Below are positions 18,301-55,939 of a stretch of DNA of 64,000 nucleotides, piece by piece. The DNA comes from Anniella stebbinsi. Its lineage: Eukaryota; Chordata; Lepidosauria; Squamata; Anniellidae. Location of the stretch: assembly GCA_029215795.1 (NCBI GenBank), contig JARDYH010000002.1, positions 110,234,501 to 110,298,500 of the forward strand. The letters are read 5' to 3'. Position numbers and translations under genes: made by a program. Under the pieces are notes generated by a model that worked only from the letters and a program-made list of their open reading frames with translations, had not been told where the DNA came from and did not search any database. How positions within the stretch are numbered: the stretch's first letter is position 1; each line of letters starts with the position of its first letter.

Positions 18301-18772
18301 CATTAAATGATGCCCTGGGAATCTTACAGTCTGACAGTGCAATCCTACACATGGCTACTCAGGCATAAGGCCCATCGAGTTCAATGCAACTTATTCCCAG
18401 GTAAGTGTGTATGGAACTGCAGCCTCAATAAATATTTCTATTTTCCTTGGTTCACAGTTAAATACTTGCATTTCATGAACAATTCTCCCTAATAATTAGC
18501 AACGGTGACAATATCTGCCAACTTCTTTTAAGTCAAGTCCTTTTGAAGCAGTGGCTTCACATATCTTACTTAGGGTACAGTGCATGCATCCCCCCTTGCC
18601 ACAAGAGGGAGCAGTAGAATCAAATTTTAAGCAAGCAGTATTGCTTTCATTCACTTTAACCAAAGTTACTAAGCAGCAGGCAGGCCATTACAACTAACTT
18701 CAAAACAACATTATTTTTATTATTTGCCAATGAATGTCTCTTCCTCTTCTAAAAACTAATCATGTTTCAAGA

Positions 18773-18865
18773 TATAAACATAGGGTTGTTAGCAATATTT
18801 CAGTCGGCAGAGAATTGTGGCATATTTGTTGGAATGTGGCTGTAAATGCAGCCCATTGAGCTAAT
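18773..18865 (+). repeat. direct repeat, partner at 19361-19450
   Basis: Both copies carry 'gatataaaca.aggg', 'ttagcaatatttcagtc', 'gcagagaattgtggcat' and 'cccattgagct'. They lie about 590 bp apart. The second copy lies inside the TIR element at 19206-19522. Confidence 0.6.
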
Positions 18866-19205
18866 TAACATCTTAGATTCCATTCTCTTCTGATCCGGAA
18901 TCTCATCTTCTGTATTTATCTGCCACTATTCCCCACTCCACAATTTTAACAGCTTGTGCTTCAATCTGACACAGAGGCCATTTTAAAGCAATTCACTAAG
19001 CTTGATTTCTGTATGCAGAATATATAGAATAAATATATATAGAATAAATATTTGATATTATTAATAAGTTCCACCTTCAGTTGCTATTGTAAATCTTCTC
19101 TTTCTTAATGTGAGGAACTCTCATATCTCTCTGCGTTCTGCCACAGCATATGAAGTCGTTTGCTCTTGGCTGTAGTTCTGACCACTCTTATAATGAAGAC
19201 TTCAT

Positions 19206-19522
19206 GGGCTGTATCCAATTGGGACCTTCTGTGCATATCCAGCCCTGTCTGTTCCAGTCTGCCTGCAGAAGGCCCTGCCAGCCCCAACCTGCAAGCGGCA
19301 TCTACCACTTTTGCAATGGGATATCACACTTCTGGGAGAAAGCCTTCAAATGACCGGAAAGGATATAAACACAGGGATATTAGCAATATTTCAGTCTGCA
19401 GAGAATTGTGGCATGTTTGTTGAAATGTGGGTGCAAAAACACCCATTGAGCTTGTTTCTGGAATGAGGGAGGTTGCTGGAGCCCTGCCCCTTCCATAAAT
19501 GAGCCACAATTGGATATGGCCC
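19206..19522. mobile_element. TIR element with GTATCCAATTG ends (317 bp)
   Basis: The left end GGGCTGTATCCAATTGGGAC is inverted at the right end as CAATTGGATATGGCCC. A related element with GGGTAGGATCCAATTGTG ends is at 23907-24192. No coding capacity. Confidence 0.55.
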
Positions 19523-19544
19523 TATGTTCCAACTAAGTATTTAG

Positions 19545-34552: not shown

Positions 34553-34560
34553 TTGTGTAT
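34553..34560. repeat. target-site duplication, left copy
   Basis: TTGTGTAT, identical to 49306-49313. Eight bases fitting nTnnnnAn, as hAT transposases produce. Confidence 0.85.
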
Positions 34561-35834
34561 TAGGGGTGTGCATCGGATCGGATCCGATCCACGATCCGAA
34601 TCCGATCCGCCCCAAAAATCGGAAAATCCGATCCGATCCGATCCGACACACCATCCGATCCGATCCGATCCGATCCGGCGAGGTCCGATCCGGATCGGAT
34701 CGGATCGGCGGATCGGACGCCATTTTAAATGCGTTTTTCCCATAGCAAAGTATTGTTGTTTTACAAAAACGCCTATAACTTTTTCATTTTTAACGACAGA
34801 AGGATGAAACTTGGGCACATTGTACACTGGTTAGGGATAGGTATCTGTGAGAAATTTCAGAAAGATTGGTGCATGCAGTTTGTGGCAATTAATTTTTTAA
34901 TAAATAACATGGAATGCCTATAACTCGGTCATTTTTAAAGTTACACACATGAAACTTTGCCACATTGTAGGTGGTACCTTGGGACCCACGTGTGTGAAAT
35001 CCCAGAACCGTGGGTGCTTGCCTGGTGTGGCAATGAATTTTTGAAAAATGGGTAGTAGTGGGGTAAATGCAGTTATGCCTCCCATGTTTTTATTTTTAAA
35101 GATACAAACAGGACACTTCGGCACATTACAGGGAACACTTCCCTTGATATGTGTGTAAAATTTCAGACAGCTAGCTCCAGGCATGTGTTGGCAATGAATT
35201 GTTGAAAATTGGGTAGCAGTGGGGTAAAATACAGTTTTGCCTCCCATTTTTTTATTTTCAAAGATACAAACGGGAAACTTTGGCACATTGCAGGGAACAC
35301 TGCACTTCAAATGTGTGTGAAATTTCCGGAAGCTAGGTGCAACATTGTAGTGGGAAACGAACGTTTATTCATGGCATTTCACATGGGATTTATGGGTTGG
35401 TTTTAAGAGCTACAAAGCTCTAACTCGCTCACATGGCACAGGACCTATGCCCGCTCAAACGCTGAAAATTTCACAAACTTTGGTGCAATGCTTTAGTGGG
35501 AAAACAAAGGTTTATTCATGGCATTTCACATGGGATTTATGGGTTGGTTTTAAGAGCTACAAAGCTCTAACTCGCTCACATGGCACAGGACCTATGCCCG
35601 CTCAAACGCTGAAAATTTCACAAACTTTGGTGCAATGCTTTAGTGGGAAAACAAAGGTTTATTCATGGCATTTCACATGGGATTTATGGGTTGGTTTTAA
35701 GAGCTACAAAGCTCTAACTCGCTCACATGGCACAGGACCTATGCCCGCTCAAACGCTGAAAATTTCACAAACTTTGGTGCAATGCTTTAGTGGGAAAACA
35801 AAGGTTAAACTTTATTATTTTAAACCTTCAGGAA
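34561..35834. repeat. left terminal inverted repeat
   Basis: The outer ~170 bp is dominated by GATCCG words. Then come about four degenerate units of ~150-160 bp, each with 'gatacaaa', 'actttggcacattg' and 'gtgtgtgaaattt'-like words. Three perfect 147-bp units follow (35367-35807). The inner boundary is set where identity to the right TIR ends (taaaccttcaggaa). Confidence 0.85.
35367..35807 (+). repeat. 147-bp tandem triplication inside the left TIR
   Basis: Three head-to-tail copies beginning attcatggcatttcacatgg. The unit is a multiple of 3, so one frame stays open across all of them; I regard that as incidental. The same three copies are in the right TIR. Confidence 0.9.
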
Positions 35835-35944
35835 AGGGAGGGGGAGGCTGTGTTTGTGTGTGTGTGTTTGACAGCTTGATCCACCAATTGTGCTTTAGAA
35901 TACATGACTGAATCACCCAATCCTGTGAAGACTTTCTTCAGCCT

Positions 35945-35980
35945 CCAATCGCAATGCTGGAGGAGAGCACCAGTATATAT
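35945..35980 (+). promoter_or_regulatory. CCAAT/TATA promoter-like site for the transposase
   Basis: CCAAT at 35945-35949 and GTATATAT at about 35973-35980, just inside the left TIR and upstream of the transposase on the same strand. The spacing is plausible for a Pol II core promoter. The nested element at 36118-37743 would fall in the 5' UTR. Confidence 0.45.
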
Positions 35981-36117
35981 TCTCTCAGCCCTGCCCTTCT
36001 GGCTCTTTGTGGGTTGAACGTGGAGGAGATTAGGGAGTGTTTTGGAGCTGTGTTGGAGAGACTGTATTGATTGAATTGATTTGATTGCATTTGGAGGTGG
36101 TTTTGAGGAGTTTCTGA

Positions 36118-37743
36118 TAGGGATGTGCACTGGATCGGACCCGATCCACGATCCGAGTCCGGTCCAGTGGGAAATCGGATAAATTATCCGATTTCCGATC
36201 CCGCAGCTGGATCGGCCGATCCAATCCGAACCGGTCCGAAAAAGCTCCGAACCGGTTCGGCGGATCGGCGGATCGGCGGGCGCCCACTGGCGCCCACCGC
36301 CGCTTCCATTGGCGGGCGCCAGCGGGCGCCCGCCGATGAAAGTGGACAGCGGGGGGGGGGAGGAGGGGGGCACTTACCTTCTCGGCCCGGTGGCTCCCGT
36401 CCGGCGCCGGCGCCTACTACTACTAGCAGGCTCCGCGGCCTGCTCTAGGGTGGCGCGCCGGGTGATGTCATCACCCGGCGCGCTACTCTAGAGCAGGCCG
36501 CGGAGCCTGCTGGTAGTAGTAGGTGCCGGCGCCGGACGGGAGCCACCGGGCCGGGAAGGTAAGGAGGGGGTGCGTGGAGGGGAGGAGGGGGCGCGCGGAG
36601 GGGGGAGGGGGGAGGGGGGCCCTTACCTTTCCGGCCCGGCGGCTCCCGTCCGGCGCCTACTATTCCCAGCAGGCTCCGCGGCCTGCTCTAGGGTGGCGCG
36701 CCGGGTGATGTCATCACCCGGCACGCTACTCTAGAGCAGGCCGCGGAGCCTGCTGGTAGTAGTAGGCGCCGGTGCCGGACGGGAGCCGCCGGGCCGGAAA
36801 GGTAAGGAGGGGGTGCGTGGAGGGGAGGAGGGGGCGCGCGGAGGGGGGAGGGGGGCCCTTACCTTTCCGGCCCGGCGGCTCCCGTCCGGCGCCGGCGCCT
36901 ACTATTCCCAGCAGGCTCCGCGGCCTGCTCTAGGATGGCGCGCCGGGTGATGTCATCACCCGGCGCGCTACTCTAGAGCAGGCCGCGGAGCCTGCTGGAA
37001 GTAGTAGGCGCCAGCGCCGGACGGGAGCCGCCGGGCCGGAAAGGTAAGGAGGGGGTGCGTGGAGGGGAGGAGGGGGCGCGCGGAGGGGGGAGGGGGGAGG
37101 AGGGGGCGCGCGGAGGGGGGAGGGGGGAGGAGGGGGCGCGCGGAGGGGGGAGGGGGGAGGGGGGCCCTTACCTGCCCGGCCCGGCGGCTCCCGTCCGGCG
37201 CCGGCGCCTACTACTACCAGCAGGCTCCGCGGCCTGCTCCAGGGTGGCGCGCCGGGTGATGTCATCACCCGGCGCGCTACTCGAGAGTAGGCCGCGGAGC
37301 CCGCTGGTAGTAGCCGCCGGCGCCGGACGTGCCGAGAAGGTAAGTGGCGGGGAAGGGGGCTTACCCCCCCCCGGAGCCGTCCGCTTCTATCCGCTGGCGC
37401 CCGCGGGCGCCAGCGGATGGAAGCAGGCGGCCCCAGGGGGGGTAGGGAGCGCGGGGGAGGGGGTTTACCTGCCGGGGCCGTCCACAGCGGACGGCCCCGG
37501 GGGGGGAGGGAGTTAGGCCCCCCCTTACCCACCCGCCGCCATTTTTTCCTCATAGACTTGCATTGCAATGCAAGTCTATGGGGAAAAAAAATGGCGGCCG
37601 ATCCAAAAATTTCGGATTTTTGGATCGGGATCGGACTCGATCCGGTCCGGGGGGCCTCCGATTTTGTCCGAACCGGTCCGGGACAAAATTGGAGGTCCCG
37701 ATCCGGGTCCCGATCCGATCCGGGGGGTCCGTGCACACCCCTA
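36118..37743. mobile_element. nested GC-rich non-autonomous relative (1626 bp)
   Basis: Ends TAGGGATGTGCACTGGATCG and inverse ...GGTCCGTGCACACCCCTA, flanked by a perfect 8-bp duplication GTTTCTGA (36110-36117, 37744-37751). The arms are GATCC-rich like those of the host element. The centre (about 36400-37340) is four hairpin-like GC-rich blocks, each with 'gcgcgccgggtgatgtcatc' and inverted 'gcaggctccgcggcctgctc'. G-rich 'ggagggggcgcgcggagggg' spacers are tandemly amplified at 37060-37165. Long open frames here reflect GC-rich composition, not genes. It is very CpG-rich. Confidence 0.85.
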
Positions 37744-37927
37744 GTTTCTGATCTTTTACTTCAGCTTTTCTTGTTCTCTCTCTTGGCTTTCCTTTCTCTC
37801 TTGCCTTTCCTTTCTTAGATAGCACGTTTGTTTGTCTGTGAGTTCAGTTTGTCTTTGCAGTGAGTGTGTTTGTTCTACTCTCGCTTTCTGAAAAAAACCC
37901 AAAAAAATAATAAAAAAATATTTCTAT

Positions 37928-37950
37928 CCTCTCTCTCTCTCTCTCTCTTT

Positions 37951-37982
<32 letters not shown>
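37928..37982. repeat. (CT)n(GT)n microsatellite in the transposase leader
   Basis: A CT run followed by a GT run about 110-160 bp before the transposase ATG. Confidence 0.9.
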
Positions 37983-37984
<2 letters not shown>

Positions 37985-38089
37985 TTGTGAGTGAGTGTGT
38001 GTTGCTGGGCTGTGTAGCCTGCTGCTACAAACACAAAAAAAGTCAGCAAAGCACACACTTACACAAAAATAAATAATAATAAAAATAAA

Positions 38090-40621
38090 ATGAAGCGTGG
38101 CACTCAAAGGGGGGGTGCTCCCAAGGCAGCATTTGGGAGAGGCCGCTCTGGGCATGGCGCTGCTGCTGCTGCTGCTGCTGGGACCAGCAGCAGGCAGCCT
38201 ACTTCCACACCCCCAGTTAAACTGAGGCGTTCTCCACTGGGGCAGCAGAAGCAGGCAGAGGCAACTCAAAGTAGTGCCTGCAGGGCACTCTTTCAGCAAC
38301 ATGAGGCAGGTGCTGGGAGCAGCAGTGGGCATGAAGAAGGAGCACTATATCCAGCTCCTTCTTTGGTGGGTGAGCCTGTGAACCCGCTGACTGATCTTTT
38401 CCCAGATCTTGTGGAAGTCAGCGAGGTTCAGAGTGAGAAGGAGGACTCTGATGTGGGGCAAGAGGAAGAGCAGGCAGCACCAGAGACTTACTCTCCACAA
38501 TCCGTCCTCTCTTCCACTCATTCCCTTGCTCCTGAGGTGACACCACAGAGCGAAGGCGCCGGCAGGCCGTCTGTGTCACCCCAGAAGCGACAGGCAAGCA
38601 AGGTGTGGGACCACTTTGAGGTGGCAGTGGATTCCCGCTTTGCTGTCTGTCGCCACTGCAAGATGTCAGTGAGCAGGGGAAAAATGCCAGGCCACTTCAC
38701 CACCACGAACCTCACCCGCCACATGCAGAGGCACCACCAGTCTGTTTTGCTTGGGACCGAGGCGGGCACCTCGCAGCAGACTGGTGCTAGCGGCAAGGGC
38801 AAGCAGAAGGCTCCTGCAACTTCTGCCAGCTCTCGACCTCCCATCCCCAAGAGGCTTCGCCAGGCCACCATGGAAGAGATGGGGTGGGGGAAGTATGGAG
38901 CCACAAGGTGGCGTTTTCCAGCGCCCAACCAGATCACCAATTGCATCGGTGAGATGGTGGCGTTGGATGACCAGCCATTCAGCCTCGTCGAGAACGCAGG
39001 CTTCAAGAGGCTGATGGCTCTTGTGGTTCCATACTACAAGCCGCCGTGTCGCACCACCCTGAGCAGGCGTGTGGTGCCCTCCCTGTACCAGGCATGCAGG
39101 GAGTTAGTTCTGGGTCGTCTGTGCCAGGCAGAGGCACAGAAGGTGCACTTCACTTCGGACATCTGGTCCAGCGAAGGAGGAGTGCACGCTTACCTGTCCC
39201 TGACGGCTCACTGGTGGGGAGCCTCAGGGCAGGAAGCACCCAGGACTTCTGGGACTGGGAAGGAGGGCTGCCGCTGGGCCCTCCTTCATACCGCAGTCAT
39301 GGACCAGTCCCACACGGCGGAGGAGATTACGGAGGCCATGAACCGCATGGTGGCAGGGTGGCTGGGCGGGCACCAGCACACCCGCGGTTACATGGTCACG
39401 GACGGGGGAGCCAATATGCTGAAGGCGGTGCGCGATGGCGGATTTGAGGGCATCCGCTGCATCGCGCACGTCTTCAACCTGGTCGTCAGGGATGGCCTTG
39501 GAGGCAGCAAGGCCCCTCTCCCTCCCCAAATCCGTAATCTCCTAGAGAGCTGCAGGAAGGTGGCTGGGCATTTCCACCACAGCGTGAAGGGCAGTCGGTT
39601 GCTGCGGGAGAAGCAGCAGGAGCTGGGACTTCCGCAGCACCGGCTAGTGCAGGACGTGGCAACACGTTGGAACTCCACCTACCACATGCTCGAGCGTATG
39701 GTGGAGCAACAGCGTGTTGTCCACGAGATGTTCAGGGTCGGGGACATTGGCATCCAGGCCCCACTGTCCAGGCAGCAGTGGGAGGCCATGTCCCAGCTTC
39801 TGGTGGTCCTCAAGCCGTTCCTTGAGGCCACCGAGACCCTGAGCAGCAGCACTGCCCTTCTCAGCCAGGTGCTCCCCGTGGCCAGGCATCTCCAGAATCA
39901 GATGGGCGAGTTTCTGGAGGCCGGGGATGCCGTCACCGGCAGGCGCTTCCTGCCAGAGGTGCGGGAAGTGGTGACGAGGCTGAGGGAAAGCCTATCCCGC
40001 CGGGTCCAGCCTCTCTACAACGAGAGGCAGTACATGTTGGCCACCATGTGCGACCCGCGCATCAAGGATGGGTTATGTGGGCAGACTTCCCGGGCAGGTT
40101 GGGTGGAAATGCTGGTGACGGACGTTCGGGCGGCCCGGGATGCCAGGATTGGGCAGGCAGAGGAGGAGCCCACCGAAGCCCAGGCGCTAAGTCCGCTGAG
40201 CACCACCAGCAGCGGCGGCACCAGCACCACCACACCCAGCAGGGGGACAGGCCAGGGGTTTTGGGACAAGGCTTTGCAGGCTGCGGTTGGGCATAGAGGC
40301 ACTCAACCCAGCCGCCGCCAGGATGACGCTGCAGCAGCAGTGCAGCGTTACCTGGCGGAGCAGATGGAGGACGGCTCCATCGAACCCCTGGCCTACTGGT
40401 CATCTCGGCGCCAGATGTGGCCTGATCTGGCGCGGGTGGCCATGGACAGAATCAGCTGCCCACCGTCCAGCGTTCCAAGCGAGCGGGTGTTTTCCATGGC
40501 GGGCGACGTGGTCACACCCCACCGCTCTCGCTTGGACGCTGAGATTGTGGAGCAGCTGGTCTTCCTCAAGGTCAATCTGCCCCTGCTGGGATACCCCACC
40601 CTCATGCCCGCGGGGGAGTAA
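38090..40621 (+). CDS. hAT-superfamily transposase with BED zinc finger, 843 aa, intact
   Basis: Cuts and joins transposon ends in the nucleus. The N-terminus (1-165) is low-complexity with an alanine run and an acidic patch, probably disordered. A BED finger spans about 168-217: VWDHFEV, C187-x2-C190, H211 and H216. The RNase-H-like core has D357 (FTSDIWSS, then YLSLTAHWW), D438 (MVTDGGANM), C457-x2-H460 (the CxxH motif) and W527 (VATRWNSTYHMLER). E798 lies in SVPSERVFS within the C-terminal dimerisation region, which ends LVFLKVNLPLL. The DDE triad and all these motifs are present with no stop or frameshift. The ATG is the first in frame after an AT-rich leader. Length and motif order fit ZBED1-like/hAT-Ac transposases. 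It probably acts on the GATCCG-rich ends of this element and its short relatives; that specificity is inferred. Confidence 0.93.
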   Translation: MKRGTQRGGAPKAAFGRGRSGHGAAAAAAAGTSSRQPTSTPPVKLRRSPLGQQKQAEATQSSACRALFQQHEAGAGSSSGHEEGALYPAPSLVGEPVNPLTDLFPDLVEVSEVQSEKEDSDVGQEEEQAAPETYSPQSVLSSTHSLAPEVTPQSEGAGRPSVSPQKRQASKVWDHFEVAVDSRFAVCRHCKMSVSRGKMPGHFTTTNLTRHMQRHHQSVLLGTEAGTSQQTGASGKGKQKAPATSASSRPPIPKRLRQATMEEMGWGKYGATRWRFPAPNQITNCIGEMVALDDQPFSLVENAGFKRLMALVVPYYKPPCRTTLSRRVVPSLYQACRELVLGRLCQAEAQKVHFTSDIWSSEGGVHAYLSLTAHWWGASGQEAPRTSGTGKEGCRWALLHTAVMDQSHTAEEITEAMNRMVAGWLGGHQHTRGYMVTDGGANMLKAVRDGGFEGIRCIAHVFNLVVRDGLGGSKAPLPPQIRNLLESCRKVAGHFHHSVKGSRLLREKQQELGLPQHRLVQDVATRWNSTYHMLERMVEQQRVVHEMFRVGDIGIQAPLSRQQWEAMSQLLVVLKPFLEATETLSSSTALLSQVLPVARHLQNQMGEFLEAGDAVTGRRFLPEVREVVTRLRESLSRRVQPLYNERQYMLATMCDPRIKDGLCGQTSRAGWVEMLVTDVRAARDARIGQAEEEPTEAQALSPLSTTSSGGTSTTTPSRGTGQGFWDKALQAAVGHRGTQPSRRQDDAAAAVQRYLAEQMEDGSIEPLAYWSSRRQMWPDLARVAMDRISCPPSSVPSERVFSMAGDVVTPHRSRLDAEIVEQLVFLKVNLPLLGYPTLMPAGE

Positions 40622-41218
40622 TTGGCAGGCACCCCCCATCCATCCCACACCTTTGGGCAGGCACCAGCAGGCCCTTGATTTTTTAATTCTTATTTTCGGT
40701 TAATTAATTTTCTTTACTTTAATTTACTGGCTGTGTTGTTTACAGCTCAGTAACTCAACTCTGAACGATGGATCCCGAAGGGATCTAGTTTCTTCTCCTA
40801 GCCTCTTACATTGAGGGGATGCACAAGCATCTCACACATTCTATGTTGTTTGACTTGAACCAATGTGCTTGCACGTGTGCCTCTGAAATTGGACTCCGAT
40901 GGCTCCCTCCAGGCCTTCTGTAAGGTCCCACACTTCCATGGGCGTTTCTTCTTGTAAGACCACGTCAGAGGCTCATGAGAACTTTGGATAAGAAGAAGGC
41001 TTAATTTTATCGCCAAGGAACGCATGCACCTCTCTGACTATGAACGAAGGACGCGATAGGATTCCTCTTCCAGGCTCCTACATTGAGTGGATGACAAGCA
41101 GCATCCCACACTGTTTCTGACTGTGTCTTATGGACTTATGTGGCAGCCTTGCAGGGCTGTCACTGTGTGTTGTGTTTATTTTGGCTATATGATTTAAAAA
41201 ACTGCCTGCCCGCCTGCC
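40622..41218 (+). other. transposase 3' flank with an imperfect internal duplication
   Basis: No gene. Two similar segments (about 40765-40840 and 41042-41115) share 'tacattgag.ggatg' and 'catc.cacac', an imperfect ~280-bp duplication. I saw no AATAAA on the plus strand here. Confidence 0.5.
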
Positions 41219-42790
41219 CACCTGCTAGGTTGCCGCCATTGTGAAGTAGCCGGAATGCGTGGGCTGGTCTCACGGTTCTATTGCTTACTTGTGCAATGCG
41301 CAAGCACCTGGCATCATGCCCGCCTCTGCCTCTGCCTCTGCCTGCCTGCCTGCCTGCCCGCCTGCTAGGTTGCCGCCATTGTGAAGTAGCCGGAATGCGT
41401 GGGCTGGTCTCACGGTTCTATTGCTTACTTGTGCAATGCGCAAGCGCCTGGCATCATGCCCGCCTCTGCCTCTGCCCCTGCCTGCCTGCCTGCCTGCCCG
41501 CCTGCTAGGTTGCCGCCATTGTGAAGTAGCCGGAATGCGTGGGCTGGTCTCACGGTTCTATTGCTTACTTGTGCAATGCGCAAGCGCCTGGCATCATGCC
41601 CGCCTCTGCCTCTGCCCCTGCCTGCCTGCCTGCCTGCCCGCCTGCTAGGTTGCCGCCATTGTGAAGTAGCCGGAATGCGTGGGCTGGTCTCACGGTTCTA
41701 TTGCTTACTTGTGCAATGCGCAAGCGCCTGGCATCATGCCCGCCTCTGCCTCTGCCCCTGCCTGCCTGCCTGCCTGCCCGCCTGCTAGGTTGCCGCCATT
41801 GTGAAGTAGCCGGAATGCGTGGGCTGGTCTCACGGTTCTATTGCTTACTTGTGCAATGCGCAAGCGCCTGGCATCATGCCCGCCTCTGCCTCTGCCTCTG
41901 CCTGCCTGCCTGCCTGCCCGCCTGCCCACCTGCTAGGTTGCCGCCATTGTGAAGTAGCCGGAATGCGTGGGCTGGTCTCACGGTTCTATTGCTTACTTGT
42001 GCAATGCGCAAGCGCCTGGCATCATGCCCGCCTCTGCCTCTGCCTCTGCCTGCCTGCCTGCCTGCCCGCCTGCCCACCTGCTAGGTTGCCGCCATTGTGA
42101 AGTAGCCGGAATGCGTGGGCTGGTCTCACGGTTCTATTGCTTACTTGTGCAATGCGCAAGCGCCTGGCATCATGCCCGCCTCTGCCTCTGCCTCTGCCTG
42201 CCTGCCTGCCTGCCCGCCTGCCCACCTGCTAGGTTGCCGCCATTGTGAAGTAGCCGGAATGCGTGGGCTGGTCTCACGGTTCTATTGCTTACTTGTGCAA
42301 TGCGCAAGCGCCTGGCATCATGCCCGCCTCTGCCTCTGCCTCTGCCTGCCTGCCTGCCTGCCCACCTGCTAGGTTGCCGCCATTGTGAAGTAGCCGGAAT
42401 GCGTGGGCTGGTCTCACGGTTCTATTGCTTACTTGTGCAATGCGCAAGCGCCTGGCATCATGCCCGCCTCTGCCTCTGCCTCTGCCTGCCTGCCTGCCTG
42501 CCCGCCTGCCCACCTGCTAGGTTGCCGCCATTGTGAAGTAGCCGGAATGCGTGGGCTGGTCTCACGGTTCTATTGCTTACTTGTGCAATGCGCAAGCGCC
42601 TGGCATCATGCCCGCCTCTGCCTCTGCCTCTGCCTGCCTGCCTGCCTGCCCGCCTGCCCACCTGCTAGGTTGCCGCCATTGTGAAGTAGCCGGAATGCGT
42701 GGGCTGGTCTCACGGTTCTATTGCTTACTTGTGCAATGCGCAAGCGCCTGGCATCATGCCCGCCTCTGCCTCTGCCTCTGCCCGCCTGCC
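41219..42790 (+). repeat. minisatellite 1: eleven 140/148-bp units
   Basis: Each unit has 'aggttgccgccattgtgaag', 'tagccggaatgcgtgggctg', 'gtctcacggttctattgctt', 'gtgcaatgcgcaagcgcctg' and a CTGC/CTGCC-rich linker. The first five unit starts are 140 bp apart; later ones are mostly 148, the extra 8 bp being a CCCACCTG-type insertion in the linker. Open frames across it are by-products of repetition. Confidence 0.95.
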
Positions 42791-44016
42791 TGCCTGGAGG
42801 TGCCCATGCAGCTGTGACTTTGCCTCTGCCAGTGGGACTTTGCCTCTGCCACTGGGACTTTGCCTCTGCCACTGGGACTTTGCCTGGAGGGGCCCATGCA
42901 GCTGTGACTTTGCCTCTGCCAGTGGGACTTTGCCTCTGCCACTGGGACTTTGCCTCTGCCACTGGGACTTTGCCTGGAGGGAGCTGTGCCAAACTGTGAC
43001 TTTGCCTGGAGGGAGCTGTGCCAAACTGTGACTTTGCCTGGAGGAGCCTGTGCCACTGGGACTTTGCCTGGAGGGAGCTGTGCCAAACTGTGACTTTGCC
43101 TGGAGGGAGCTGTGCCAAACTGTGACTTTGCCTGGAGGAGCCTATGTGCCACTGTGACTTTGCCTGGAGGAGCCTATGCCAACGTGACTTTGCCTGGAGG
43201 AGCCTATGTGCCACTGTGACTTTGCCTGGAGGAGCCTATGTGCCACTGTGACTTTGCCTGGAGGAGCCTATGCCAATGTGACTTTGCCTGGAGGAGCCTA
43301 TGTGCCACTGTGACTTTGCCTGGAGGAGCCTATGCCAACGTGACTTTGCCTGGAGGAGCCTATGCCACTGTGACTTTGCCTGGAGGAGCCTATGTGCCAC
43401 TGTGACTTTGCCTGGAGGAGCCTATGCCAATGTGACTTTGCCTGGAGGAGCCTATGTGCCACTGGGACTTTGCCTGGAGGAGCCTATGCCAATGTGACTT
43501 TGCCTGGAGGAGCCTATGCCAATGTGACTTTGCCTGGAGGAGCCTATGCCAATGTGACTTTGCCTGGAGGAGCCTATGTGCCACTGTGACTTTGCCTGGA
43601 GGAGCCTATGCCAACGTGACTTTGCCTGGAGGAGCCTATGCCACTGTGACTTTGCCTGGAGGAGCCTATGTGCCACTGGGACTTTGCCTGGAGGAGCCTA
43701 TGCCAATGTGACTTTGCCTGGAGGAGCCTATGCCAATGTGACTTTGCCTGGAGGAGCCTATGCCAATGTGACTTTGCCTGGAGGAGCCTATGTGCCACTG
43801 TGACTTTGCCTGGAGGAGCCTATGCCAACGTGACTTTGCCTGGAGGAGCCTATGCCACTGTGACTTTGCCTGGAGGAGCCTATGTGCCACTGTGACTTTG
43901 CCTGGAGGAGCCTATGCCAATGTGACTTTGCCTGGAGGAGCCTATGCCAATGTGACTTTGCCTGGAGGAGCCTATGCCAATGTGACTTTGCCTGGAGGAG
44001 CCTATGTGCCACTGGA
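42791..44016 (+). repeat. minisatellite 2: 20-bp, then 30/32-bp units
   Basis: The first ~200 bp uses a 20-bp unit (gactttgcctctgccactgg). From about 42970 the unit becomes tgactttgcctggaggagcc plus tatgccaatg or tatgtgccactg, giving 30- and 32-bp forms in a higher-order order near the end. The word GACTTTGCC also recurs in the terminal exon at 47119-47710, hinting at common origin. Confidence 0.95.
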
Positions 44017-44270
44017 GTCCTCCGATCCACAGCGGCCGCACGAATAAGGTAAGTGTGTGCAGTCAACGCAGGGACACCTGAGAGTGTCCAGAAGTGGGGC
44101 AGTCTGAGATCTTACTTCCGAGTAAGCAAGCAGGCAGCCCCGTGTGCCTACTGGGGCGTAGGCACTCAGGACCGGGCAGATGCCAGTCCTGGGTGAGAGG
44201 GAGCCAATGGTGGAAAAGTATGATTTATCTCATGTTAATTCTTTTCCCCCCCCCCCTCCTTCTTTTGCAG

Positions 44271-44385
44271 CCTATGGAACTCTTCGCCACTGCGCAAAGC
44301 GCACCCGTGATTCCAGACTGCCCATCTGCCCCAGCCACGGCCACATGGAGGTGGCCCCTCGATTCACGTCACCCCTACGACTCAG
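44271..44385 (+). other. predicted exon A1 (115 bp)
   Basis: Acceptor ccctccttcttttgcag, donor CTCAG|gtaagag. Intron before it is 44049-44270 (222 bp). The sequence is ~93% like the later A exons by eye. Confidence 0.55.
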
Positions 44386-44405
44386 GTAAGAGTGCAGGCA
44401 GAGTG

Positions 44406-44571
44406 GCCATATAGAAAAGAAGGCAGGGCCCCTGCACCTTTAACTGTTGTGATGAAGAGGGAATCTCAGCAGGAACTAATTCCATACAAATGACACTGGC
44501 AGAAATTCCCTTTTCCCTACAACTGCTGAAGTTAGGAACCCTGACCTGGATTTGATCTGGTCAGCCTAACG
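44406..44571. mobile_element. half foldback MITE inside an intron of the cassette array
   Basis: One arm of the 9610-9930 family ('gaagggcagggcccctgc'-type start, 'gggaatctcagcaggaacta', 'acctggatttgatctggtca'). It lies in the intron 44386-44892 and explains that intron's larger size (507 bp). Confidence 0.65.
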
Positions 44572-44892
44572 TAGGGTGCTATTAGGAGTGAATGAATAAC
44601 CCAAGGACAAAAGAAATGGTGATTCTCTAATGATCCGGTAAGCTGTGTCCTGCCAGACACAAAAGGATAGCCAATCCCTCTAACAATGGGCTCAGAAGAG
44701 TGATTTAGAAAGGGAGGGGTGCAGCAGGAGAAAGAGGATTGCATCACAAACAAGAGAAGTGTGCCGGTGGGAGACTAGTAGGACTTGCATGTATTAATTA
44801 TTTAATACAAATCTTTATTTATTTTCCTTTCTTCTTTTGCAGTATAAAAGTATTCATGTAATATTCATTATCCCCCTCCTCTTCTTTTGCAG

Positions 44893-45095
44893 CCTATGGC
44901 ACTCTCACTGCCACAGTGCCCGGGAAAGGAGAGACTTTGCCCATTACATGCCAGCCTGCCCGCCCGCTGCTGATGCCACCTGCCGCCTTCCAGATCGTTC
45001 CTGCGAGGCGGGCCAGCCGCCTTCCTTGCACAAGCCATGGGACTAGGGGTCCTCCAGGAGAATCTCACCGAGTCCTCAACGCCCTCAGGACTATG
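44893..45095 (+). other. predicted exon D (203 bp)
   Basis: Acceptor tcctcttcttttgcag, donor CTATG|gtaagt. The first half matches the start of the terminal exon ('acagtgcccgggaaaggaga'); the last ~30 bp match the end of B exons ('aacgccctcagga'). It thus looks like a fusion of the terminal exon and B. A TATAAAAG lies 45 bp upstream (about 44842). Confidence 0.55.
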
Positions 45096-45299
45096 GTAAG
45101 TGTTCTGTGAATGGGGGGGGCACCTTCCACCTAACTGAAGGTTGGCTGTCTGCCTGCTAACTTCCGAGTGAGCAGGCAGCCCCGTGTGCCTGCTGGGGTG
45201 TGGGCACTCAGGAAGGGCAATCCTGGGTGGAAGGGAGCTGGTTGTGTTAAAGTGGTCAACTAATATTCATTCTTTTCCCCCCCCCTCCTTCTTTTGCAG

Positions 45300-45414
45300 C
45301 CTATGGAACTCTTCGCCACTGCGCAAAGCGCACCCGTGAATCCAGACTGCCCATCTGCCCCAGCCACGGCCGCATGGAGGTGGCCCATCAATTCACGTCG
45401 CCCGCACGACTCTG
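45300..45414 (+). other. predicted exon A2 (115 bp)
   Basis: Acceptor ctccttcttttgcag, donor CTCTG|gtaaga. Opens the first complete A-B pair. Confidence 0.55.
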
Positions 45415-45585
45415 GTAAGAGCCTGTCAGAGAGCTTACCCACGAGTAAGCAAGCAGGCAGCCCCGTGTGCCTGCTGGGGCGTGGGCACTCAGGACCGGGC
45501 ACATGCCAGTCTTGGGTGGGAGGGAGCCAGTGGTGGAAAAGTATCATTTTTCTCATATTCTTCCCCCCCCCTTCTTCTTTTGCAG

Positions 45586-45701
45586 CCTATGGAACTCTTT
45601 GCCACAGTGCCCAGGAGAGACGGTAATGCAGACTGCCCACCTGCCCGTCACTGCCCGCCTGGAAGTGGCATCTTATCAACAACGCCCTCAGGAGGACTAC
45701 G
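45586..45701 (+). other. predicted exon B2 (116 bp)
   Basis: Acceptor cttcttcttttgcag, donor CTACG|gtaagt. In-frame continuation of A2 in frame 2. Confidence 0.55.
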
Positions 45702-45906
45702 GTAAGTGTTCTGTGAATGGGGGGGCACCTTCCACCTAACTAAAGGGTGGCTGTCTGCCTGCTAACTTCCGAGTGAGCAGGCAGCCCCGTGTGCCTGCTT
45801 TGGCGTGGGCACTCAGGAAGGGCAATCCTGGGTGGAAGGGAGCTGGTTGTGTTAAAGTGGTCAACTAATATTCATTCTTTCCCCCCCCCCCCTCCTTCTT
45901 TTGCAG

Positions 45907-46021
45907 CCTATGGAACTCTTCGCCACTGCGCAAAGCGCACCCGTGAATCCAGACTGCCCATCTGCCCCAGCCACGGCCGCATGGAGGTGGCCCATCGATT
46001 CACGTCGCCCGCACGACTCTG
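45907..46021 (+). other. predicted exon A3 (115 bp)
   Basis: Near-identical to A2, 607 bp downstream, with identical splice sites. Confidence 0.55.
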
Positions 46022-46192
46022 GTAAGAGCCTGTCAGAGAGCTTACCCACGAGTAAGCAAGCAGGCAGCCCCGTGTGCCTGCTGGGGCGTGGGCACTCAGG
46101 ACCGGGCACATGCCAGTCTTGGGTGGGAGGGAGCCAGTGGTGGAAAAGTATCATTTTTCTCATATTCTTCCCCCCCCCTTCTTCTTTTGCAG

Positions 46193-46307
46193 CCTATGGA
46201 ACTCTTTGCCACAGTGCCCAGGAGAGACGGTAATGCAGACTGCCCACCTGCCCGTCACTGCCCGCCTGGAAGTGGCATCTTATCAACAACGCCCTCAGGG
46301 GACTACG
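46193..46307 (+). other. predicted exon B3 (115 bp, one base shorter)
   Basis: Identical to B2 except for a one-base deletion near the end (cctcaggggactacg against cctcaggaggactacg). This breaks the A-B-A frame at this point. Confidence 0.55.
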
Positions 46308-46512
46308 GTAAGTGTTCTGTGAATGGGGGGGGCACCTTCCACCTAACTGAAGGTTGGCTGTCTGCCTGCTAACTTCCGAGTGAGCAGGCAGCCCCGTGTG
46401 CCTGCTGGGGCGTGGGCACTCAGGAAGGGCAATCCTGGGTGGAAGGGAGCTGGTTGTGTTAAAGTGGTCAACTAATATTCATTCTTTCCCCCCCCCCCTC
46501 CTTCTTTTGCAG

Positions 46513-46627
46513 CCTATGGAACTCTTCGCCACTGCGCAAAGCGCACCCGTGAATCCAGACTGCCCATCTGCCCCAGCCACGACCGCATGGAGGTGGCCCA
46601 TCGATTCACGTCGCCCGCACGACTCTG
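46513..46627 (+). other. predicted exon A4 (115 bp)
   Basis: Third tandem A exon; one G-to-A difference near its middle. Confidence 0.55.
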
Positions 46628-46798
46628 GTAAGAGCCTGTCAGAGAGCTTACCCACGAGTAAGCAAGCAGGCAGCCCCGTGTGCCTGCTGGGGCGTGGGCA
46701 CTCAGGACCGGGCACATGCCAGTCTTGGGTGGGAGGGAGCCAGTGGTGGAAAAGTATCATTTTTCTCATATTCTTCCCCCCCCCTTCTTCTTTTGCAG

Positions 46799-46914
46799 CC
46801 TATGGAACTCTTTGCCACAGTGCCCAGGAGAGACGGTAATGCAGACTGCCCACCTGCCCGTCACTGCCCGCCTGGAAGTGGCATCTTATCAACAACGCCC
46901 TCAGGAGGACTACG
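46799..46914 (+). other. predicted exon B4 (116 bp)
   Basis: Full-length B; joins in frame to the terminal exon. Confidence 0.55.
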
Positions 46915-47118
46915 GTAAGTGTTCTGTGAATGGGGGGGGCACCTTCCACCTAACTGAAGGTTGGCTGTCTGCCTGCTAACTTCCGAGTGAGCAGGCAGCC
47001 CCGTGTGCCTGCTGGGGCGTGGGCACTCAGGAAGGGCAATCCTGGGTGGAAGGGAGCTAGTTGTGTTGAAGTGGTCAACTAATATTCATTCTTTTTTCCC
47101 CCCCTTCTTCTTTTGCAG

Positions 47119-47710
47119 CCTATGGAACTCTCACTGCCACAGTGCCCGGGAAAGGAGAGACTTTGCCCATTACATGCCAGCCTGCCCGCCCGCTGCTGAT
47201 GCCGCCTGCCGCCTTCCAGATCCTTCCTGCAAAGAGAGCAAGCCGCCCTCCTCGCACAAGCCATGGGACTTGGCATTCGCCCTCAAGGAGAATGTCACCC
47301 AGTCCCCAACGCCGCTGTTGGACTTTGCCCTGGATGCCAGCCTGCCCGCCCGCTGCTGATGCCGCCTGCCGCCTTCCAGATCCTTCCTGCAAAGAGAGCA
47401 AGCCGCCCTCCTCGCACAAGCCATGGGACTTGGCATTCGCCCTCAAGGAGAATGTCACCCAGTCCCCAACGCCGCTGTTGGACTTTGCCCATTAAATGCC
47501 AGCCTGCCCGCCCGCTGCTGATGCCGCCTGCCGCCTTCCAGATCCTTCCTGCAAAGAGAGCAAGCCGCCCTCCTCGCACAAGCCATGGGACTTGGCATTC
47601 GCCCTCAAGGAGAATGTCACCCAGTCCCCAACGCCGCTGTTGGACTTTGCCCATTAAATGCCAGCCTGCCTGCCCGCCTTCCAGATTCTGCTGTGGAAGG
47701 AGAAATAAAT
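47119..47710 (+). other. predicted terminal exon C with a 160/162-bp tandem repeat
   Basis: Acceptor ccttcttcttttgcag. After 57 bp shared with exon D come three tandem units of 160-162 bp starting at 47176, 47336 and 47498, and a partial fourth from 47660. The frame continuing from exon B4 stays open to a TAA at 47493-47495, encoding a Pro/Arg/Ser-rich tail with no motif I recognise. Each unit ends gactttgccc. Confidence 0.55.
47704..47709 (+). terminator. poly(A) signal AATAAA
   Basis: The first AATAAA I see on the plus strand after the transposase stop codon, just past the repeat-bearing terminal exon. Confidence 0.5.
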
Positions 47711-48042
47711 AATACTAGGTGCTGCAAGAGACCATGTGGATTGGCTCTACATCAAAGCAGCCTTCTGGTTTAGAATTACATACTACACAAGAAAAGAACA
47801 ATCACTTATCCTGCAAGATCCCTTCCCAGGCTAGGATCTGAATAATAGCTATTAGCTAGGATCTGAATAGCTATTACCTGGGATTAGCTACTAGTGCATT
47901 TGGTAGCATTCCTGCAACCAACACCTGTCTTGTCATGTAAATGTATGGGTCCCTAAAGCAATTTACAATCACTTTACATTTTACAAATGAATAAGTGAAA
48001 CTTTCTTCCCTCATTACCAATCCACACCAGGCAGGCAATGTC
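47711..48042 (+). other. unique spacer before the right TIR
   Basis: No gene; contains a short duplication of 'gctaggatctgaata' at 47832-47873. Confidence 0.4.
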
Positions 48043-49305
48043 CCCTTCCTGAAGGTTTAAAATAATAAAGTTTAACCTTTGTTTTCCCACTAAAGCATTG
48101 CACCAAAGTTTGTGAAATTTTCAGCGTTTGAGCGGGCATAGGTCCTGTGCCATGTGAGCGAGTTAGAGCTTTGTAGCTCTTAAAACCAACCCATAAATCC
48201 CATGTGAAATGCCATGAATAAACCTTTGTTTTCCCACTAAAGCATTGCACCAAAGTTTGTGAAATTTTCAGCGTTTGAGCGGGCATAGGTCCTGTGCCAT
48301 GTGAGCGAGTTAGAGCTTTGTAGCTCTTAAAACCAACCCATAAATCCCATGTGAAATGCCATGAATAAACCTTTGTTTTCCCACTAAAGCATTGCACCAA
48401 AGTTTGTGAAATTTTCAGCGTTTGAGCGGGCATAGGTCCTGTGCCATGTGAGCGAGTTAGAGCTTTGTAGCTCTTAAAACCAACCCATAAATCCCATGTG
48501 AAATGCCATGAATAAACGTTCGTTTCCCACTACAATGTTGCACCTAGCTTCCGGAAATTTCACACACATTTGAAGTGCAGTGTTCCCTGCAATGTGCCAA
48601 AGTTTCCCATTTGTATCTTTGAAAATAAAAAAATGGGAGGCAAAACTGTATTTTACCCCACTGCTACCCAATTTTCAACAATTCATTGCCAACACATGCC
48701 TGGAGCTAGCTGTCTGAAATTTTACACACATATCAAGAGAAGTGTTCCCTGTAATGTGCCAAAGTGTCCTGTTTGTATCTTTAAAAATAAAAACATGGGA
48801 GGCATAACTGCATTTACCCCACTACTACCCATTTTTCAAAAATTCATTGCCACACCAGGCAAGCACCCACGGTTCTGGGATTTCACACACGTGGGTCCCA
48901 AGGTACCACCTACAATGTGGCAAAGTTTCATGTGTGTAACTTTAAAAATGACCGAGTTATAGGCATTCCATGTTATTTATTAAAAAATTAATTGCCACAA
49001 ACTGCATGCACCAATCTTTCTGAAATTTCTCACAGATACCTATCCCTAACCAGTGTACAATGTGCCCAAGTTTCATCCTTCTGTCTTTAAAAATGAAAAA
49101 GTTATAGGCGTTTTTATAAAACAATAATTTGCTATAGGAAAAAGCATTCAAAATGGCGTCCGATCCGGATCGGAAAATCCGATCCGCGGATCGGAATCGG
49201 ATCCGATCCGATCCGACACACGATCCGATCCGATCCGATCCGACCCCCCAGGTCCGATTCCGATCCGCTATCCGATCCGATCCGGGGGGTCAGTGCACAT
49301 CCCTA
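48043..49305. repeat. right terminal inverted repeat
   Basis: Inverse of 34561-35834, including the three 147-bp units (about 48073-48519) and the outer GATCCG array (49160-49290). Only scattered substitutions in the inner part; the terminal array differs more in repeat number. Confidence 0.85.
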
Positions 49306-49313
49306 TTGTGTAT
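49306..49313. repeat. target-site duplication, right copy
   Basis: TTGTGTAT, identical to 34553-34560. Confidence 0.85.
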
Positions 49314-49364
49314 TATTATATTGTGTATTAAAGTATTGCCATCAACATGATCATTCCTGAGGAT

Positions 49365-53414: not shown

Positions 53415-55939
53415 TTTTTTTTTTTTTTAATAATTTTTTTATTATTTTTCAACATAACATAATACAACATAAACCTAAACAACATAAAATACAATACATA
53501 CCGCATACCCCCGTGCTCCCCTCCCCCCAGGAGACCTTCGATTATACATTATTCTTCTTTCCAAAAATGTAAAGACTCTTTTGAAGGCATTTGCCCCTTC
53601 CCCGTTCTTAATACATATTCCAAAAATAAACTCCATATATCTCCAAAATCATTCTTACTGGACATTCCCCTCTTTATTTTCATTTTACACGTTAGCTTAT
53701 CATTAAGTGCCATGTCCCATATTTCTTTATACCATTCTTCTATGGTATATATCCCTTGCCCTTTCCAATTTTTAGCAATCATTATTCTGGCGGGAGCCAG
53801 GAGGTTGTTTATTAATTCTCTCTTATTTATATTCTCCATACCTTTTTCCCATATTGCTAGTAGAGCCAGCTTTGGGTTTAATTCCAAATTACTTCCAATT
53901 ATATAACTTATTTCTTTAAACACCCTTTCCCAAAATTTTTGTACATGTTTACAGCTCCACCACATATGGAAATACGTTCCAACCTCCTGACATCCCCTCC
54001 AACAATTCTTGGACACTTTTTTATCTATCTGATGAAATCTTACCGGCGTTAAATACCATCTCCATACTATTTTATAATAATTCTCCTTAATTCTAATCGA
54101 CAAAAGCTTTAACATTCTTGCATCCCATATCTTCCCCCAGTCATGTTCATTAATTTGTTCTTTTAAGTCATCTTCCCAAATCATTTTAAGTGAATCTCTA
54201 TATTCAGCTTCCTCTGTCAGGATTTTATATATTTCACTAGTTGGACCTTTTCTAGCTTTAATTACTTCCTTCTTTCCTCTTGATTCAATTAAATCTTCAA
54301 ATCTTGTATTATTTCTACACTTCTTATTCATCTTTTTCCATTCCTGTGTCCATTTTTCCAATTGTAAACATTTGAACCAAGCTATCTTTTGTCCTTTTAC
54401 CAACTCTCTAATTTGCTCCTTATCTGTCATTCTTTCCATCCAATTCCTTAACTTAATAATTTCCTGACCCTTCAAACTTCCTTCCAATTCTACTTTTAAA
54501 TTCCTTGGGAAATTTCTCGCAACTACCACTGGGGCGAGTGGAGAGTCTCCTGGTATTAAACTCCCTTTAACTTTCTCCCAGATCTCTAGAATGTTTTTCA
54601 GCAACGGGTTGTCCAGTCCCCTCAAATCTTTCTTTTGGATTTTATTATTAAAAAAAATATTTTGCAATTTGAAATCTGGTTCCCCTGTTTGCGTTTCTAA
54701 CCATTCTAAATCTTCCTCCCCTAATATACTATTTATAACATATCTTAACTGATTAGCACTATAATAATTCTTTATGTTTGGAAGTCCCAAACCTCCTTTC
54801 TTTTGTGTCTTATACCATAGCCCTTTATTAATCCTAGCTCTCTTATCTCCATTGCAATAAGCATTAATCATATTTTGCCAACTCTTTAACTCTACATCCG
54901 ATATTTTAATCGGTAGCATTCTAAACAAAAAATTAATCTTGGGTAATATCTTCATTTTTATAACCACTATTCTACCAAACCAAGAATGTTTTAATTTCCT
55001 ATATGCCTCTAACTTTTCCCCTACCTGTTTTTTCAAACTTACAAAATTAATTTCTTCTAACCTGTCTAAATCTTTTGCAATATTAACTCCTAAATAACGT
55101 ACTATATTTTTAAGCCTAAGACCTAACTTAACTTTACCTTCCTCCATCTCCTCTTTGTTATAATTGAATAACATCATTTCTGACTTCCCCCAATTAACTT
55201 GTAGACCTGTGACCTCCCCAAATTCTCTCAAATGTTTCTTAATCAGGTCCCCCTCCTTCAGGGGGTCTTCTAATGTCAGTAATGTGTCATCCGCAAACAT
55301 ATTTATTTTAATCTTCTCCTTCCCTCCTATCCCCTTCAATCTTGAATCCTCCCTTATAACATTTGCCAAAATTTCTATTACTATTGCAAATAATATCGGT
55401 GAAAGTGGGCAACCTTGTCTTGTTCCTCGGGCTAGTGTAATCTGTTGCGTTAACCCATCATTAACCATTATTTCTGCTTTATTATTTTTATACAGTTGAT
55501 CCATCACTCCCATAAATTTCACTCCAAGCCCAAATGTTTTCAAAATTAATTTAAGTGCTGGCCATTCCATGCAATCAAAGGCTTTGAATATATCCAATGC
55601 TAATAATCCCGCTTTTAAATTCCTTTTTTTAATAATATTAATTATATTTAAAACTCTTCCTATTAAATTAGGCATTTGCCTTCCTGGGATAAATCCACAT
55701 TGATCCTTTCTAATATACTTATGTATAAACGTACTCATCCTTTTTGCCATTATTGCTGTAAAAAATTTTGAATCTTGATTTATTAAAGATATTGGTCTAT
55801 AAGATGCTGGGTCAGTCAAATCCTTTCCTGGTTTCAGAATTAATATGATCAAGGAATGATCCCATGATGGGGGGGTCTTTCCCCCTTCTATTATACTATT
55901 AAATATTTTTTTTAATCTTGGTAGTAAAATTCCTTTAAA
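53415..55939 (-). mobile_element. 5'-truncated L1 LINE, young insertion
   Basis: Bounded by a 16-bp target duplication GGCTCATACTCAGCTT (53401-53416 and 55940-55955; the last two T overlap the tail). The poly(T) at 53415-53428 is the poly(A) tail of a minus-strand copy. About 2.5 kb of ORF2 and a short 3' UTR remain. An undisturbed frame indicates recent insertion. Confidence 0.9.
53549..55939 (-). CDS. L1 ORF2p C-terminal part (reverse transcriptase and Cys-rich tail), truncated
   Basis: The frame is open from the 5' truncation point (reading FKGILLPRLKKIFNSIIEGG) to its stop, about 796 codons. RT motif A is LALDIFKAFD, motif B RQGCPLSPILF and motif C FADDTLL; counted from 55852 these are near residues 84, 145 and 186. 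The thumb, connection and C-terminal region follow, with C-x3-C and H/C residues in CWRGCQEVGTYFHMWWSC. The endonuclease domain and ORF1 are missing, so it cannot retrotranspose itself. No true start codon is present. Confidence 0.88.
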   Translation of the reverse strand, partial: FKGILLPRLKKIFNSIIEGGKTPPSWDHSLIILILKPGKDLTDPASYRPISLINQDSKFFTAIMAKRMSTFIHKYIRKDQCGFIPGRQMPNLIGRVLNIINIIKKRNLKAGLLALDIFKAFDCMEWPALKLILKTFGLGVKFMGVMDQLYKNNKAEIMVNDGLTQQITLARGTRQGCPLSPILFAIVIEILANVIREDSRLKGIGGKEKIKINMFADDTLLTLEDPLKEGDLIKKHLREFGEVTGLQVNWGKSEMMLFNYNKEEMEEGKVKLGLRLKNIVRYLGVNIAKDLDRLEEINFVSLKKQVGEKLEAYRKLKHSWFGRIVVIKMKILPKINFLFRMLPIKISDVELKSWQNMINAYCNGDKRARINKGLWYKTQKKGGLGLPNIKNYYSANQLRYVINSILGEEDLEWLETQTGEPDFKLQNIFFNNKIQKKDLRGLDNPLLKNILEIWEKVKGSLIPGDSPLAPVVVARNFPRNLKVELEGSLKGQEIIKLRNWMERMTDKEQIRELVKGQKIAWFKCLQLEKWTQEWKKMNKKCRNNTRFEDLIESRGKKEVIKARKGPTSEIYKILTEEAEYRDSLKMIWEDDLKEQINEHDWGKIWDARMLKLLSIRIKENYYKIVWRWYLTPVRFHQIDKKVSKNCWRGCQEVGTYFHMWWSCKHVQKFWERVFKEISYIIGSNLELNPKLALLAIWEKGMENINKRELINNLLAPARIMIAKNWKGQGIYTIEEWYKEIWDMALNDKLTCKMKIKRGMSSKNDFGDIWSLFLEYVLRTGKGQMPSKESLHFWKEE

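Follow-up and report, generated by a model that had tools for sequence, protein, structure and literature searches.

The question raised by this locus is whether a segment of 14.7 kb can be a single transposon of the hAT superfamily, whose elements are usually a few kilobases long. The segment lies in a 64,000-nucleotide stretch of contig JARDYH010000002.1 of Anniella stebbinsi (Squamata, Anniellidae), hereafter the window, numbered from its first letter. An initial annotation had proposed there a giant hAT-type element with a perfect target duplication, long terminal inverted repeats (TIRs), one intact transposase and extra cargo. Positions 34561–49305 are occupied by one hAT transposon of 14,745 bp, which very probably belongs to a family of giant hAT elements (~10.6–16 kb), young and present in many copies, that would move by the mechanism proposed below and carry a second unit besides the transposase gene. 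By its sequence the family appears real and young, and it is apparently autonomous: an intact transposase gene and intact ends are present in 10 of the 11 copies compared, activity being predicted from these features.

The element begins with TAGGGGTGTGCA at 34561 and ends with TGCACATCCCTA at 49305, and the 8-mer TTGTGTAT stands directly outside each tip. Because this word recurs in the right flank (at 49321 and 51723, window search), a single perfect 8-mer at the window copy is weak evidence alone. The duplication was settled by copies found elsewhere in the genome, which was searched over 1.89 Gb in 91 contigs. Ten of the best 39 other places, namely the 10 best-ranked of 13 other plus-strand left-arm matches, were read end to end and show 10 different perfect 8-mers. 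All 11 copies (the window copy included, as in the counts below) have identical tips, and their 8-bp duplications are perfect, free of mismatches and all distinct. They differ from the TA duplication of Tc1/mariner elements; TA is found at the duplication centre in 2/11 copies. As in Hermes, most copies have T at position 2 (9/11) and A at position 7 (9/11), with both in 7/11, which fits the Hermes target preference nTnnnnAn (PMC10368747) over 11 sites and with no background model.

The middle of the element is shared by the copies as well. In nine of the other 10 copies the window element, a nested insert described below being left out, accounts for 100% of the sequence (to three decimals); L019 is covered 97.7%, a single 348-bp stretch being uncovered. 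The copies are 10,639–16,000 bp long and the designation as giant hAT was right, with the nuance that part of the size observed in the window is due to a nested relative unseen in other copies: minus this insert and its extra 8-mer the element measures 13,111 bp. The same comparison bears on the view that, in place of one transposon of such size, the locus has a pair of short elements facing each other or a segmental duplication. Facing pairs can yield long inverted arms and the arms of this locus are near identical; however, 11/11 copies have a common interior between distinct perfect outer 8-bp duplications, and the exact-pattern search of the window found the outer pair of tips and the nested pair only, with no inner tips for the long arms. 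That view is refuted by the copies and is regarded as extremely improbable. Mis-assembly is unlikely because the structure is the same at 10 other loci.

The inverted arms, estimated previously at ~1.26 kb, are ~1.27 kb (~1,270 bp) each. Alignment of 34752–35839 with 48041–49128 gives 1088 nt of 99% complementarity without gaps, and indels distinguish left from right in the outer ~190 nt, a GATCCG-rich zone. The left arm contains seven head-to-tail units of ~145–162 bp, four of them degenerate and three almost identical. The arms depart from the short TIRs of hAT elements, for which 5–27 bp is a typical (PMC12506042), not a defining, length. Compared along 560 nt, 10 left and 11 right arms diverge by 0.63% between sides and by 0.50–0.56% within one side, a near-equality which implies that the arms are young or homogenised. 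Tandem arrays account for 22.5% of the 14,745 bp, and arrays and exon units together for 43.6%.

Three pieces of the element were searched for in the genome, the best 40 places being scored per search, and the copy counts are consequently lower bounds. The left arm (34561–35834, 1274 bases) has a full-length match of 98–100% at 40/40 scored places of 1953 first-look candidates, the remaining listed matches being short and nearly all confined to the outer zone. Full-query matches were likewise obtained at 40/40 scored places for the transposase gene (printed as 100%; 1338 candidates) and for the start of the second unit (99–100%; 2477 candidates). The three lists combined identify at least 95 distinct loci with at least one near-identical piece, most of them marked by just one of the three queries. 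A second-unit match is found 6.4–9.5 kb downstream of 20/40 scored left arms among the matches listed, one further pair at 23 kb being left out. Mean pairwise divergence of the transposase gene over 11 copies is 0.37% (maximum 0.67%); the burst is therefore recent. Unit numbers per copy vary in the 148-bp and 30-bp arrays (Table 1), in the exon acceptors (6–13) and in the 147-bp units of the right arm (2–6). Such wide differences despite a transposase divergence of at most 0.67% would fit slippage in gap repair.

The announced uninterrupted hAT transposase was recovered: the frame 38090–40621 is open over 843 codons and its product carries a zf-BED finger (PF02892, 3.8e-10), a usual though not universal hAT feature, and the dimerisation region Dimer_Tnp_hAT (PF05699, 1.8e-15, 56.9 bits vs a cut-off of 21.4). 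At E<=0.001 Pfam gives BED and hAT families only, and no P-type transposase with a THAP domain. The four sequence matches in PDB (2bw3, 4d1q, 6dww, 8edg) are all Hermes, as are the chains in 12/12 Foldseek matches at E<=0.001 of the predicted model, which is weak overall (mean predicted local distance difference test score, pLDDT, of 59) with a higher-scoring core. The motifs HFTSDIWSS, VTDGG and PSERVFS are present and assign the presumed catalytic role to D357, D438 and E798, a motif reading and not a residue-level comparison with Hermes. In a 13-protein alignment D357 is kept in 10 sequences, D438 in 11 and E798 in 9, so that several relatives look dead and the window protein, as judged from these positions, does not. 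The finger residues C187, C190, H211 and H216 are the same in 13/13 proteins. The frame is intact in 10/11 copies, the exception being L017 with a frameshift, and the window frame has no substitution relative to the 11-copy majority and one 3-base length difference. Three CCAAT boxes and TATATATT are kept upstream of the gene in 11/11 copies.

The closest proteins, two without names, are 46–48% identical to the transposase. The closest named ones are ZBED4-like proteins of amphibians and squamates (Microcaecilia, Geotrypetes, Rhinatrema, Anolis, Rana, Hemicordylus, Lithobates), 38–43% identical over 79–88% of the query; the likeness to these hAT transposases is by protein alone. Such distant best relatives speak against the family having already been described in Repbase, Dfam or a species paper, an argument weakened in that masking may hide most high-copy repeats of annotated genomes. 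No such giant hAT family was found in the openly licensed literature by title or abstract start, and the word "hat" is absent from the available text of a review of giant eukaryotic transposons (PMC6431247). A previous description is considered conceivable but rather unlikely.

Several points weigh against a functional, autonomous family. The copies read end to end are biased to well-kept left arms, and the statement that all are full length is biased upward. The transposase copies differ by 40 nonsynonymous and 14 synonymous substitutions, a ratio of 2.86 vs 2.79 expected; purifying selection is not detectable among the 11 copies, and substitutions of this neutral type mean that the intact frames reflect youth and are no proof of function. 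The family and its second unit are known here from DNA sequence alone. Lastly, the transposase gene of the window copy may work less well because of its nested insert.

This insert is a non-autonomous relative with the same type of tips (TAGGGATGTGCA...TGCACACCCCTA), flanked by its own duplication GTTTCTGA and placed between TATATATT and the transposase ATG at 38090. It is missing from 15/15 other copies examined (seven plus ten, two loci being in both sets), and a single GTTTCTGA is kept in 9/10 copies checked for the word, none being found in L019. Its region 36349–37413 is CpG-rich (observed/expected 0.78–1.13 vs 0.36 for the window) and contains inverted GC-rich units with the splice-donor-like AAG/GTAAGG and the palindrome TGATGTCATCA. 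The insert resembles a series of promoter/first-exon modules, which could provide the transposase acceptor at 37819 with a promoter or a donor. The odds are about even that the window copy is immobile or moved only in trans, considering that positions 36118–37743 separate TATATATT from the ATG and that the other copies examined are free of the insert. On the other side, the strong donors at 36559, 36802, 37044 and 37340 precede the acceptor at 37819, which itself lies before the ATG, so that splicing could skip the insert, or the insert could even supply the promoter; the tips and the frame of this copy are also intact.

Next to copies L011, L019 and L027 there are three more small elements, each with tips of the same kind and a perfect duplication, and non-autonomous relatives thus seem common. 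They are an 841-bp element with duplication CTAGTTAT (18683–19523 of the joined stretch L011+L012), a 1,282-bp element with duplication CCACCCTG (16785–18066 of L019+L020) and a 2.85-kb relative with its own duplication ATTATGAC (15432–18277 of L027+L028, C1:75687702–75690547). The arms of the latter are ~82% like those of the giant element, and it would represent an older or sister non-autonomous family.

Downstream of the transposase gene, two tandem arrays are followed by an exon-like run ending at a polyadenylation signal, and this run is predicted from the sequence to be a second spliced transcription unit. Each 148-bp unit of the first array contains words that we take to resemble YY1 (GCCGCCAT), ETS (CCGGAA) and NRF1 (TGCGCAAGCGC) sites; YY1/ETS/NRF1-like words are found in multiplied promoter elements. 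From 44049 to 47119 acceptors and donors alternate near-regularly, delimiting units X (115 bp), Y (203 bp) and Z (116 bp) that start CCTATGG after CTTTTGCAG. The plan is the same in 11/11 copies, the order of units varying. Measured internal exons number 89, of which 44 are 115, 23 are 116, 21 are 203 and one is 113 bp long. The CTTTTGCAG acceptor precedes 101/101 exon starts, and the GTAAG donor is kept at 89/90 internal exons, the exception being in L027 (a narrower donor motif counted 87 and 1; 12 matches elsewhere were left out). In the window copy, nine strong acceptors are followed by a strong donor within 50–300 bases over 3.1 kb, two of them sharing a donor, which gives eight exons. 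Acceptor-donor pairs number zero on the opposite strand of the same 3.1 kb, zero along 48 kb of flanking window sequence read on the plus strand (2 acceptors and 14 donors) and zero in 200 dinucleotide shuffles of 44007–45702, where the real sequence has four.

The existence of this unit is challenged on four counts. The thresholds of the splice controls were set with the pattern already in view; the exons, being duplicates of one another, are few independent observations; the alternation is imperfect, the X1–Y1 intron having an extra donor-like site at 44638 and a stronger acceptor at 44843; and the full spliced chain lacks a single open frame, a stop being met in the first Z exon when read from the first exon. 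A single protein translated from the first exon through the whole chain was rejected for this stop. The frame X-Z-last is the longest open one in 6/11 copies (the L027 value is unreliable, its chain being ended early by the donor threshold), and its coding role is suggestive only.

The second unit could instead be a functionless gene fragment, captured or home-grown, whose repeats slip and whose splice sites are relics kept by youth. A 172-residue spliced peptide has no protein relatives at E<=0.001 among 1,874 candidates scored from a set of 5.8 billion proteins, two spliced peptides have nothing above cut-off in Pfam, the one match below it being Stomagen (E 0.069), the element has no Rfam match at the gathering threshold, and the frames differ between copies. 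Against a fragment of this sort, variable positions in the three unit types amount to 0/27 in the nine acceptor bases vs 118/476 in the remaining intron, a figure inflated by intron subtypes, and 33/278 in the exons; the start of the unit is present in 11/11 copies at 97.7–100%; and a phase-consistent open frame like X-Z-last occurs in only 42/3000 shuffles. A functionless fragment is given a minor share of the probability. The extra cargo of the initial annotation is borne out as tandem arrays and a predicted spliced unit, and does not amount to a recognisable gene.

Another possibility is that the exon-like array is the spliced 3' untranslated region of the transposase transcript, in one unit from the left TATA box to the right polyadenylation signal. 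Exon junctions past the stop codon would then expose the transcript to nonsense-mediated decay and restrict the output of transposase. The transposase gene and the exon array are on the same strand, the window copy has no donor scoring >=8 between 37340 and 44049, and 8/11 copies have no AATAAA or ATTAAA from the transposase stop to the last exon. The last point is weak evidence because base composition predicts such absence in 20–53% of shuffles, depending on the copy; moreover, 3/11 copies do have one of these signals there, and the 148-bp array could itself act as a promoter, by the motifs we take it to contain. A spliced 3' untranslated region is considered doubtful, and a separate second unit is kept in what follows.

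In the proposed mechanism, the 843-residue BED transposase, expressed from its own CCAAT/TATA promoter beside the left arm, would bind the ~150-bp units lined up in the long arms, excise the element and insert it elsewhere at nTnnnnAn-like sites, with an 8-bp stagger and subsequent repair. The second spliced unit, made of tandemly multiplied exons, would end at the polyadenylation signal that precedes the right arm. The numbers of array units and exons would change very fast, probably by slippage during gap repair after excision. A non-autonomous relative would later have jumped between the transposase TATA box and ATG in the window copy.

By the features tested the element is a hAT member whose architecture would be a new variant among known hATs. 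The 8-bp target-site duplications, the BED finger, the hAT dimerisation region, a predicted fold matching Hermes and repeated subterminal units beside the tips are shared with Hermes and hAT elements generally, such as Ac, hobo and Tol2. In Hermes the TIRs measure 17 bp and the ends ~450 bp, and BED domains of its octamer bind the left end (PMC10368747); the arm repeat units of the giant element would be BED-domain binding sites of this type. Unlike Hermes and typical hATs, the giant element has inverted arms of ~1,270 bp and a length of 10.6–16 kb with a predicted second spliced unit. Very long repetitive TIRs are shared with Galileo of Drosophila (P superfamily), whose TIRs vary between copies and whose longest copy has ~140-bp tandem repeats (PMC4168063); multiple binding sites for the finger domain of its transposase were found in the long repeated TIRs (PMC3688188). 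Galileo differs by its P-superfamily transposase with a THAP domain, and the likeness looks like a convergent architecture on a different enzyme. ToxhAT/ToxTA of wheat fungi is also about 14 kb long, bounded by TIRs, cargo-carrying and was once called hAT. Its duplication is the 2-bp TA and its TIRs are 74 bp long, and its authors now place it with Tc1/mariner as non-autonomous (PMC12506042), whereas the giant hAT has 8-bp duplications and its own hAT transposase.

A giant vertebrate hAT with Galileo-like arms and an accessory spliced gene of tandemly multiplying exons, whose copies express different exon combinations, could form a distinct architectural class; this is put forward tentatively, at somewhat less than an even chance. 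The hAT superfamily is usually described with a transposase alone, and the second unit, if expressed, would be an accessory gene in it. The family would also exemplify how exon and array numbers change at a divergence below 1%, and its transposase is a candidate for an active enzyme of large capacity. How large a cut-and-paste element can become is an open question, efficiency being said to fall with the distance between ends (PMC6431247). Here a hAT of 10.6–16 kb has spread, with near-identical pieces at 95 loci or more, and it can serve as a natural test of the idea that length is compensated by long repeated arms, as proposed for the Galileo binding sites.

Table 1. Features of the giant hAT element and of its borders in the window.
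Feature	Positions	Strand	Basis or remarks
Left target-site duplication TTGTGTAT	34553–34560	.	tips and copy comparison
Left terminal inverted repeat: TAGGGGTGTGCA, ~190-nt (GATCCG)-rich outer zone, seven head-to-tail 145–162-bp units	34561–35838	+	
Probable transposase promoter and start of 5' untranslated region (three CCAAT, TATATATT)	35840–36117	+	motifs in 11/11 copies; promoter role suggested by them
Left target-site duplication GTTTCTGA of nested element	36110–36117	.	window tip search
Nested 1,626-bp non-autonomous relative, same tip type	36118–37743	.	window copy only
Right target-site duplication GTTTCTGA of nested element	37744–37751	.	window tip search
hAT transposase, 843 amino acids: BED finger, RNase H-like core, hAT dimerisation region	38090–40621	+	intact in 10/11 copies
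Array of 11 units, 140/148 bp	41202–42796	+	3–16 units per copy; possible promoter region of second unit
Array of 30/32-bp units	42797–44006	+	19–54 units per copy by word count
End of predicted first exon, donor AAG/GTAAGT at 44049	44007–44048	+	splice-site scan
Predicted exon X1 (115 bp)	44271–44385	+	splice-site scan
Predicted exon Y1 (203 bp); second strong acceptor upstream at 44843	44893–45095	+	splice-site scan
Predicted exon X2 (115 bp)	45300–45414	+	splice-site scan
Feature in exon-like run	45586–45701	+	splice-site scan
Predicted exon X3 (115 bp)	45907–46021	+	splice-site scan
Feature in exon-like run	46193–46307	+	splice-site scan
Predicted exon X4 (115 bp)	46513–46627	+	splice-site scan
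Feature in exon-like run	46799–46914	+	splice-site scan
Predicted last exon, ~162-bp units, AATAAA at 47704–47709	47119–47712	+	splice-site scan
Right terminal inverted repeat	48042–49305	-	arm comparison
Right target-site duplication TTGTGTAT	49306–49313	.	tips and copy comparison

Two reverse-transcriptase sequences lie elsewhere in the window, both on the minus strand. An RVT_1 fragment at 13199–14254 probably belongs to another kind of long interspersed element than the L1-like frame of 767 amino acids at 53549–55852. The latter points to a lizard-like squamate host by its best relatives, which are from Anolis (49–58% identity over 45–100%) and Podarcis (34% over 99%).

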